Shown piece after piece: positions 22,958 to 24,350 of a stretch of 64,000 bases of DNA. Source of the stretch: Varunaivibrio sulfuroxidans (GTDB taxonomy: Bacteria > Pseudomonadota > Alphaproteobacteria > Rhodospirillales > Magnetovibrionaceae). How positions within the stretch are numbered: the stretch's first letter is position 1; every line of letters begins with the position of its first letter. The notes beneath the pieces were generated by a model that was not told the DNA's origin, made no database searches, and was given only the letters and a program-made list of their open reading frames with translations. The position numbers were made by a program, and so were the translations under genes. The stretch is taken from positions 698,614 through 762,613 of the forward strand of contig NZ_CP119676.1 in the NCBI RefSeq assembly GCF_029318635.1. Direction: 5' to 3'.

Positions 22958-23524
22958 TTACGATGCGTCTCCCGCGTAAAAGGCGCGCCCGACCGCCATC
23001 CATGGCGGGTCCAACGCCCGGATGGCGTCGTAGGCCGGGCAATCCTCACGGTGGGTGCCGGGCAGATAGCCGATGCTCATCAAAAATTCGCCGGTAATCT
23101 CACCGCCGGTGAACTTGAAGGTTTTCTTGAACAGCTTCACCCAATCGCTCTTGACGCGGGGGTGTTGGGCGGCGAGCCAACCGGCGAAGCCTTTGTGACT
23201 GGCGCGCAGGGCCTGAATGCGCCGTGCGTTCTCGATAATCGCGGCGATTTTAAGCCGATTGCGAATTATATCAGAATCGCCGAGCAGACGTTCGACATCG
23301 TCGGCCCCGAACGCCGCCACGGTATCGACATCGAACCCGGCGAAGGCGCGCCCGATCGCTTCGCGTTTTTTCAAAATCAACAACCAGGATAACCCGGCCT
23401 GGAAAATTTCCAGCGCCAGACGTTCGAACAGGGCACTTTCCGCGTTTAAGGGAAAGCCGTATTCCCTATCGTGATAGGGGCCGTGGATGGGATGCCCCTT
23501 AGCTGCGTCGCAATACCAATTCAC
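22958..23524 (-). CDS. tag: DNA-3-methyladenine glycosylase I (Tag)
   Basis: Tag removes 3-methyladenine from alkylated DNA. The 188-residue product, of normal length, has the zinc ligands of the family: Cys5 and a histidine near residue 18 at the N-terminus (WYCDAAKGH, YHDREYGFP), and THREDC near residue 163. The helix-hairpin-helix region includes LFERLALEIFQAGLSW with the conserved catalytic glutamate. The start is 17 bp from the nested inverted-repeat element that separates it from the upstream methyltransferase gene. Confidence 0.95.
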   Translation of the reverse strand: MNWYCDAAKGHPIHGPYHDREYGFPLNAESALFERLALEIFQAGLSWLLILKKREAIGRAFAGFDVDTVAAFGADDVERLLGDSDIIRNRLKIAAIIENARRIQALRASHKGFAGWLAAQHPRVKSDWVKLFKKTFKFTGGEITGEFLMSIGYLPGTHREDCPAYDAIRALDPPWMAVGRAFYAGDAS

Positions 23525-23541: not shown

Positions 23542-23737
23542 CTCGTCACCTGGAACTGAAACGGTTCATATATGACACACGGAAAAAGGCTTCGGCTAGG
23601 AAAGGCCCGCGCCGTGATGCGGGAACATCATAAGCGGACCGTGACGACGTCCGAAGCCTTTTTCCGTGCGCCCAAACGATCATAGAGGCAAAGCGGCCCC
23701 CCATACGGCGCGCCGTATTTCAGTTCCAGGTGACGAG
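23542..23737. repeat. 196-bp element of nested perfect inverted repeats
   Basis: The outer arms are 20-bp perfect inverted repeats (23542-23561 and 23718-23737). Inside lie 18-bp perfect arms (23578-23595 and 23651-23668) that enclose two smaller hairpins: CCCGC/GCGGG (23606-23610, 23619-23623) and GGAC/GTCC (23637-23653). A 16-bp palindrome ATACGGCG/CGCCGTAT (23703-23718) abuts the right outer arm. The element fills almost the whole gap between the methyltransferase stop codon and tag. It could be a non-autonomous mobile element (MITE-like), a REP-type sequence or a multi-branched RNA. No clear target-site duplication was found. Confidence 0.75.
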
Positions 23738-23738
23738 C

Positions 23739-24350
23739 CTACGCCCTTTTATATCCGGTCAGCCCGATCAGCGCCGACATGCCTCTATGCCCCGGACCTT
23801 CATCGACCTCTCGCTCTTCCTCGGCGATTTCAAGTTTTTCTAAAATGGTAAATGTTCCTTCGAGAAGCGCGCGCGTGTACAAATTTTCAAGACGGCGCGG
23901 CCCGCCGGTGCCGTATTCGAGCTGTTTTGGCGTATACCCTTGGAGGATCAGCAGTCCGCCCGGTTTTAAAGCCCTCAGCATGCCCGCCCATTTTTGCGCC
24001 CGTTGGTCGGGATCGCTGAATTGGGTGAAAATTTCAACGACGACGTCAAATTGCGCCTCGGGGTAGGCCCATTGATGAACGTCGGCGCGTTCGATGCGCA
24101 TGGTCACGCCGTATTCATCGGCCAGAGCGCGAGCCTTCACCTGGGCGGCGGGGGAAAAATCGAGGGAAAGCACATCCAGCCCCCGACGCGCCAACCAGAC
24201 GCCGTTGCGCCCCTCACCGTCGGCGACGACCAGAACATTCCCATGTTCGGGAAGTTTATCCGCGTTGGCGACCAGGAAGGTGTTGGCCTCCTTGCCGAAA
24301 ACGTAATGATCGGACGAAAAACGATTTTCCCAATCTTCAAAAGCGCTCAT
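23739..24350 (-). CDS. Class I SAM-dependent methyltransferase (TehB-like)
   Basis: A 203-residue soluble protein with the Rossmann methyltransferase core: motif I VVADGEGRNGVWLARRG near residues 41-57, an acidic residue ending strand 2 (LSLDFSP), the IERADVHQW loop, VVVEIFTQF and LKPGGLLILQGYTP. The N-terminal SSDHYVFGKEANTFL is typical of the TehB-like thiopurine/tellurite-type group. The substrate is unknown. Its stop codon directly abuts the inverted-repeat element. It starts 26 bp after the end of the methylmalonyl-CoA epimerase gene. Confidence 0.85.
   Translation of the reverse strand: MSAFEDWENRFSSDHYVFGKEANTFLVANADKLPEHGNVLVVADGEGRNGVWLARRGLDVLSLDFSPAAQVKARALADEYGVTMRIERADVHQWAYPEAQFDVVVEIFTQFSDPDQRAQKWAGMLRALKPGGLLILQGYTPKQLEYGTGGPRRLENLYTRALLEGTFTILEKLEIAEEEREVDEGPGHRGMSALIGLTGYKRA

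Follow-up and report, generated by a model that had tools for sequence, protein, structure and literature searches.

A palindromic block between a methyltransferase gene and tag is probably a degenerate copy of a non-autonomous mobile element with a conserved double hairpin

The window analysed here, a stretch of 64,000 nucleotides from Varunaivibrio sulfuroxidans, contains a block of nested inverted repeats between a SAM methyltransferase gene and tag (Table 1). As originally described, the block comes within 1 nt of the methyltransferase stop codon at one end and within 17 nt of the start of tag at the other. An inverted-repeat search of the block returned exactly two perfect repeats, with the predicted 20-bp outer arms (23542-23561/23718-23737) and 18-bp inner arms (23578-23595/23651-23668). 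The claim that this symmetry exceeds chance is likewise borne out by folding, with z-scores of -8.55 on the plus strand and -8.93 on the minus strand; none of the 200 dinucleotide shuffles examined for each strand folds as well as the block itself. One further inverted repeat, 17 nt long (82%; 23681-23697/23773-23789) and probably a chance match, has one arm in the element's linker and the other at the end of the methyltransferase gene.

Table 1. Features of the window copy and its neighbours (window coordinates), and of two further CTAG-bounded sequences (coordinates within the loci named)
Feature	Position	Strand	Remarks
tag	22958-23524	minus	Pfam Adenine_glyco
Outer stem, left arm	23542-23577		First 20 nt pair perfectly with right arm
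Hairpin A, conserved core unit	23578-23668	+	Match to R1 covariance model
Hairpin A internal loop, conserved CTAGGA side	23596-23601	+	
Hairpin A apical stem-loop, GTGATG...CATCAT	23614-23631	+	
Hairpin A internal loop, conserved GACGACG side	23643-23649	+	
Linker and start of the putatively deleted hairpin B	23669-23702		
16-bp palindrome ATACGGCGCGCCGTAT, putative deletion scar	23703-23718		By-eye comparison with L002, L003 and L020
Outer stem, right arm	23718-23737		Ends in CGAG, the mirror of CTCG at the left end
SAM methyltransferase	23739-24350	minus	Pfam Methyltransf_25
Second CTAG-bounded repeat	L005 1565-1700; L003 from 1784; L009 1400-1490		
Third CTAG-bounded sequence (ends ...GGTCCTGACCCTAG)	L005 1430-1512; L006 1360-1505; L016 1450-1512; L010 1545-1565		

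One explanation offered in the original prediction was a non-autonomous mobile element, and this alternative is supported both by dispersed copies in the same genome and, for other copies, by empty sites in congeners with target duplications. A 216-bp query against the 3.07-Mb genome recovered the window itself and three long matches (89-91%), along with numerous end fragments, so that the proposed copy search did find several dispersed copies. Near-complete copies of 285-291 bp are present at L002, L003 and L004/L020 (the last two being one copy), while hairpin B survives by itself in L008 and, in L007, with a portion of the linker still attached. Set beside the full copies, the window copy appears to lack most of hairpin B, with a junction at GCGCGCC repeats. 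The 16-bp palindrome is present as predicted, but by this comparison it would be the joint left by an internal deletion and would not form a functional unit by itself; short direct repeats could have mediated the deletion that removed hairpin B. Full copies in this genome have a longer linker (29-30 nt) than the usual 9-16 nt, and the left end of the window copy reads CTCG where other copies have CTAG. The window copy is probably immobile now.

The first copies from relatives came as weak DNA matches in two genomes (G017 and G026), and they share the same layout on unrelated stem sequences. A covariance model of the inner hairpin, R1, was built from an alignment of 12 hairpins, and it matches hairpin A of the window with a score of 76.2 bits (E-value 8.8e-17 over the 64-kb window, the window copy being one of the 12 training sequences). 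Across 85 loci, R1 produced 157 matches (E<=0.001), of which we used 151 after excluding six weaker ones that lay on the opposite strand of a stronger match. These comprise 65 pairs and 21 singles, and every pair is arranged plus then minus. The linker measures 9-16 nt in 61 of the 65 pairs and 29-36 nt in the other four (three of them from the genome of the window), and a clear outer stem of terminal inverted repeats is present in 61 of the 65. Addition of a second set brought the total to 98 pairs with 94 distinct cores; taking 36 nt for each outer arm, the 94 distinct elements are approximately 261-286 bp long, with a median of 267. The intact element, of about 267 bp, consists of an outer stem of about 36 bp that terminates at TA/CTAG or TNA, hairpin A, a short linker that usually forms a mini-hairpin (such as CCCGAAGGG or CCGTTTCGG), and hairpin B, which is hairpin A in inverted form. 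A single strand can therefore adopt a four-way junction, and three full elements folded as DNA gave z-scores of -12.2, -17.3 and -15.0.

Among 41 related genomes, including that of the window, 23 carry R1 matches (20 of 28 genera; E<=0.001), with 60 matches in G026. A survey of the class found matches in at least 39 of 385 genomes (E<=1e-5), a lower bound given the reduced sensitivity of scoring 11 candidates per genome, and a phylum-wide sample, which overlaps that of the class, found them in 8 of 398 (10 candidates scored). The sole carrier outside the class in this sample (G488, locus L359) displays the full layout by eye, with hairpin A alone reaching the model threshold. R1 further confirmed two plasmid-borne cases, a hairpin pair with TCA on either side in Agrobacterium sp. 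MA01 and a single hairpin in Thalassospira marina; the other plasmid and phage searches with family copies returned no match beyond these two records, and the window query gave only weak, chance-level matches to plasmids. At L361 and L362 (about 1400-1700), from two related class genomes with the same genus label (g42), a GCGTAGC...GCTACGC palindrome lies in the hairpin or its surroundings, which suggests nested repeats.

Covariation between the arms, proposed as a check at the tag locus, was examined across the family and proved strongly positive, indicating that the hairpins have conserved their folded shape. In the 12-hairpin alignment, both sides have changed in 25 of 33 pairs, and the covariation measures exceed those of all 500 shuffles and of every slid control. 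A set of 217 hairpins was reduced to 114 non-redundant sequences by clustering at 75% identity; in these, 88.0% of cells at 37 reference pairs are paired, compared with 57.7% in shuffled alignments (maximum 59.2%) and 36-41% in slid controls; double changes number 1324, compared with 431 (maximum 486) after shuffling. The arm sequences vary almost freely while complementarity is kept. Nearly invariant are AGG and ACG on opposite sides of the internal loop and GATG/CATC at the tip, and the letters of the AGGA/GACG loop could form G-C and tandem G.A pairs. Both hairpins show an excess of G.T over A.C (90 versus 26 and 96 versus 28), located at loop-proximal positions 10-16; since the basal ten pairs have no such excess (27 versus 21, summed by hand), we do not take this bias as proof of an RNA.

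For 11 copies from a single genus, the two flanks were joined and searched against 11 genomes of the same genus, yielding many matches that span the junction. At L287, TAA flanks both sides of TACC...GGTA where the empty sites have a single TAA/TAG, and at L302, TA flanks both sides of GAGC...GCTC where they have a single TA. L298 and L290 agree less well with a 2-bp duplication, L289 and L297 align poorly at the joint, and L288, L291, L294 and L296 gave no junction-spanning alignment among the loci fetched. No empty site for the window copy was found among the tag loci of relatives, because these relatives lack the methyltransferase. By eye, the insertions in L287, L292 and L302 coincide with the natural stop codon, and that in L298 lies 6 nt upstream. 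Of 176 sides examined, 128 flanks have an incoming open frame (>=240 nt), and in 46 of these its stop lies 0 to +4 from the stem edge. Insertion could have created some of these stops, as the element ends themselves contain TAG; for three copies, the empty sites speak against such an origin. The 3-bp flanks of a script-derived set of 21 TACC-type elements are identical in 7, reverse-complementary in 8 and different in 6; correction by hand, which removed five CTAG-type ends and fixed one mis-registered row, left 16 TACCA elements with 8, 3 and 5, respectively. In G345, the flanking dinucleotides differ among some recent copies, for which a simple TA duplication does not account.

The R1 core is found on at least ten unrelated outer ends, among them TACCAAG/TACCAC, TAGTACCCACT, AGTACTTACT, TAGTGGTCTGG, TAGTGTCCTGG, TAGTGTGGTG, TAGAGCNNTTCC, TTAGAGCCCGTCC, TAGGAGCCTATCTGAG, TAGGGTCCG, TAGCCCGGATTTCTCACC and the window type, GTCACCTGGAACTG. 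TACC-ended and GAGC-ended elements with this core occur together in one genus, which holds two duplication lengths, and the distance from TA to hairpin A is about 35-38 nt in nearly all elements. Neither an autonomous partner nor a mobilising gene was found in the genomes searched: the R1 core is present in none of 39 transposase loci, and among the 16 sites of the window-type end in its own genome, no pair brackets a gene and no insertion sequence has those ends. None of IS630 (PF13358; 11 of 41 genomes), Y1 (PF01797; 17 of 41) and DUF4096/IS5 (15 of 41) tracks the element or fits as a universal mobiliser, each of the three being lacking in several of the genomes with many elements. Among insertion sequences, IS630 and some subgroups of IS5 generate TA or TNA duplications. 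The IS630 copies of the order, including one in the genome of the window, have CTAGAG-type ends (CTAGAGC...-like), which within this family are similar only to the GAGC-ended class.

What the family shows is dispersal, exact insertion that duplicates 2 or 3 bp of target and often falls at stop codons, a conserved architecture and strong arm covariation. The block in the window is very probably a degenerate copy of such a palindromic, non-autonomous mobile element. The family as a whole is best read as a superfamily of non-autonomous, MITE-like palindromes that different transposases mobilise in trans. DDE-type enzymes that read the ends alone would mobilise them, probably of IS630 type for the TA-flanked GAGC class and, for the TACC class, of a kind that duplicates TNA; over time, one core would have gained many different ends. 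Because the arms drift while pairing and loops hold, we infer that the internal loop and tip work in a folded single strand, which might be single-stranded DNA that arises in replication or transfer, or else a host mRNA at its 3' end. Insertion at a stop codon, with duplication of that codon, would keep the host gene intact.

The terminal inverted repeats, the target duplications and empty sites (of other copies) and the multiple dispersed short copies are those of a MITE. Bacterial MITEs of the IS630/Tc1-mariner sphere, such as RUP, Correia/NEMIS and ERIC, are presented in PMC2229807 as small, non-coding, dispersed sequences with terminal inverted repeats, TA duplications and stable stem-loops, and the present family resembles them in size, dispersal, terminal repeats, TA duplications and stable stem-loops. 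It differs in having two inverted hairpins of about 92 nt with a conserved internal loop between the terminal repeats, and in combining many unrelated terminal repeats with a core common to many families of the class and found once outside it. Non-autonomous elements are usually defined by copied transposase ends, whereas here the folded core is conserved under heavy compensatory change and the ends differ, employing no fewer than two duplication lengths; the role of a MITE interior thereby becomes testable. Four-armed structures at many host stop codons are also candidate 3'-end regulators and candidate markers for strain typing in alphaproteobacteria.

A bolder extension, possible though doubtful, is that the double hairpin is a selfish cassette read by its structure: a host or transposon factor would recognise the folded strand, through the tandem-GA-like AGGA/GACG loop, the GATG tip and the four-way junction, and promote spread, while ends of unrelated transposases would be acquired repeatedly. 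Such a cassette would be a hyperparasite of insertion sequences with its identity in the fold and not in the terminal repeats, and its landing in stop codons would be harmless, since in one orientation or the other the targets TNA and YTAR read as stop codons.

A MITE of ordinary descent might also keep its arms perfect by template-switch (quasipalindrome) correction alone, with no selection on the fold. Flanks that are mirror images of each other (CTCG/CGAG in the window, CTGG/CCAG in L002 and TAA/TTA-type pairs elsewhere) look like target duplications altered by such correction between the arms, and the lack of a G.T excess in the basal ten pairs fits the same process. We nevertheless regard this account as unlikely to suffice, because mutation alone would not hold the features kept over 114 clusters with unrelated arms, namely the tip, the unpaired AGGA/GACG loop, the mini-hairpin in the linker and the length of the element.

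Movement as a REP/REPIN-type element, by a RAYT (Y1, HUH) transposase whose substrate is single-stranded DNA in folded form, would explain the inverted hairpin pairs, structure-conserving stems and dispersed copies, and head-to-head REP dimers are described for alphaproteobacteria in PMC3733652. We consider it improbable, and disfavour it on the absence of Y1_Tnp from carriers: the genome of the window, G031, G022, G034, G032 and G040 all have R1 matches and no Y1_Tnp. Nor do the long terminal repeats, the 2-3-bp duplications and the median length of 267 bp agree with a GTAG-tagged hairpin of 20-40 bp accompanied by a RAYT in the genome. REP and CGTC-tagged repeats, which the same source treats as 20-40-bp tagged hairpins, are comparable in their head-to-head palindrome dimers, their abundance in alphaproteobacteria and, for the CGTC type, the lack of a known dedicated transposase, and differ from the present elements in size, terminal repeats and target duplications (PMC3733652).

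Least probable is a multi-branched RNA specific to this locus, by which expression of the methyltransferase would be tied to that of tag: both genes do lie on one strand with the element between them, and the minus strand folds well, but the sequence is dispersed in its own genome, the 24 relative loci with tag have mce nearby in 18 cases and the methyltransferase in none, and R1 matches only 2 of 25 tag loci (that of the window and, in L263, a contig edge), which largely refutes the proposed coupling and makes the methyltransferase-element-tag arrangement local to this genome.

Rfam models gave only a sub-threshold isrK match in the window and only a serC leader in 14 family loci, each outside the element, which rules out a known Rfam family. 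Rhizobium-specific intergenic mosaic elements (RIME) and Bru-RS are alphaproteobacterial palindromic intergenic repeats, as are the elements studied here. The Caulobacter intergenic repeats (CIR) were reportedly described by Chen and Shapiro in 2003. No description of the present element was found in the open-licence literature, where the closest is CIR as summarised in PMC2229807: an alphaproteobacterial intergenic repeat of about 110 bp, in which a linker connects two long hairpin arms, as here, and which has, in that summary, no outer stem and a conserved GANTC. We reject identity with CIR on the size of about 267 bp, the outer stem of about 36 bp and the depletion of GANTC (5 of 114 hairpins, with 28.2 expected).

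Several loci contain additional CTAG-bounded sequences (Table 1). A second repeat, starting CTAGTGGATCG... and ending ...CAAACCACTAG, lies inside the hairpin A loop CTAG of the L005 copy and abuts family copies in L003 and L009. The third sequence adjoins family copies and is probably another subfamily, because in L006 it bears the same CTAGGAG / GACGACG loop. At L010 (1470-1550), a family end is fused to a terminator hairpin just downstream of an apparent tRNA gene, the join lying at a shared CCCTTTTTCCGTG.
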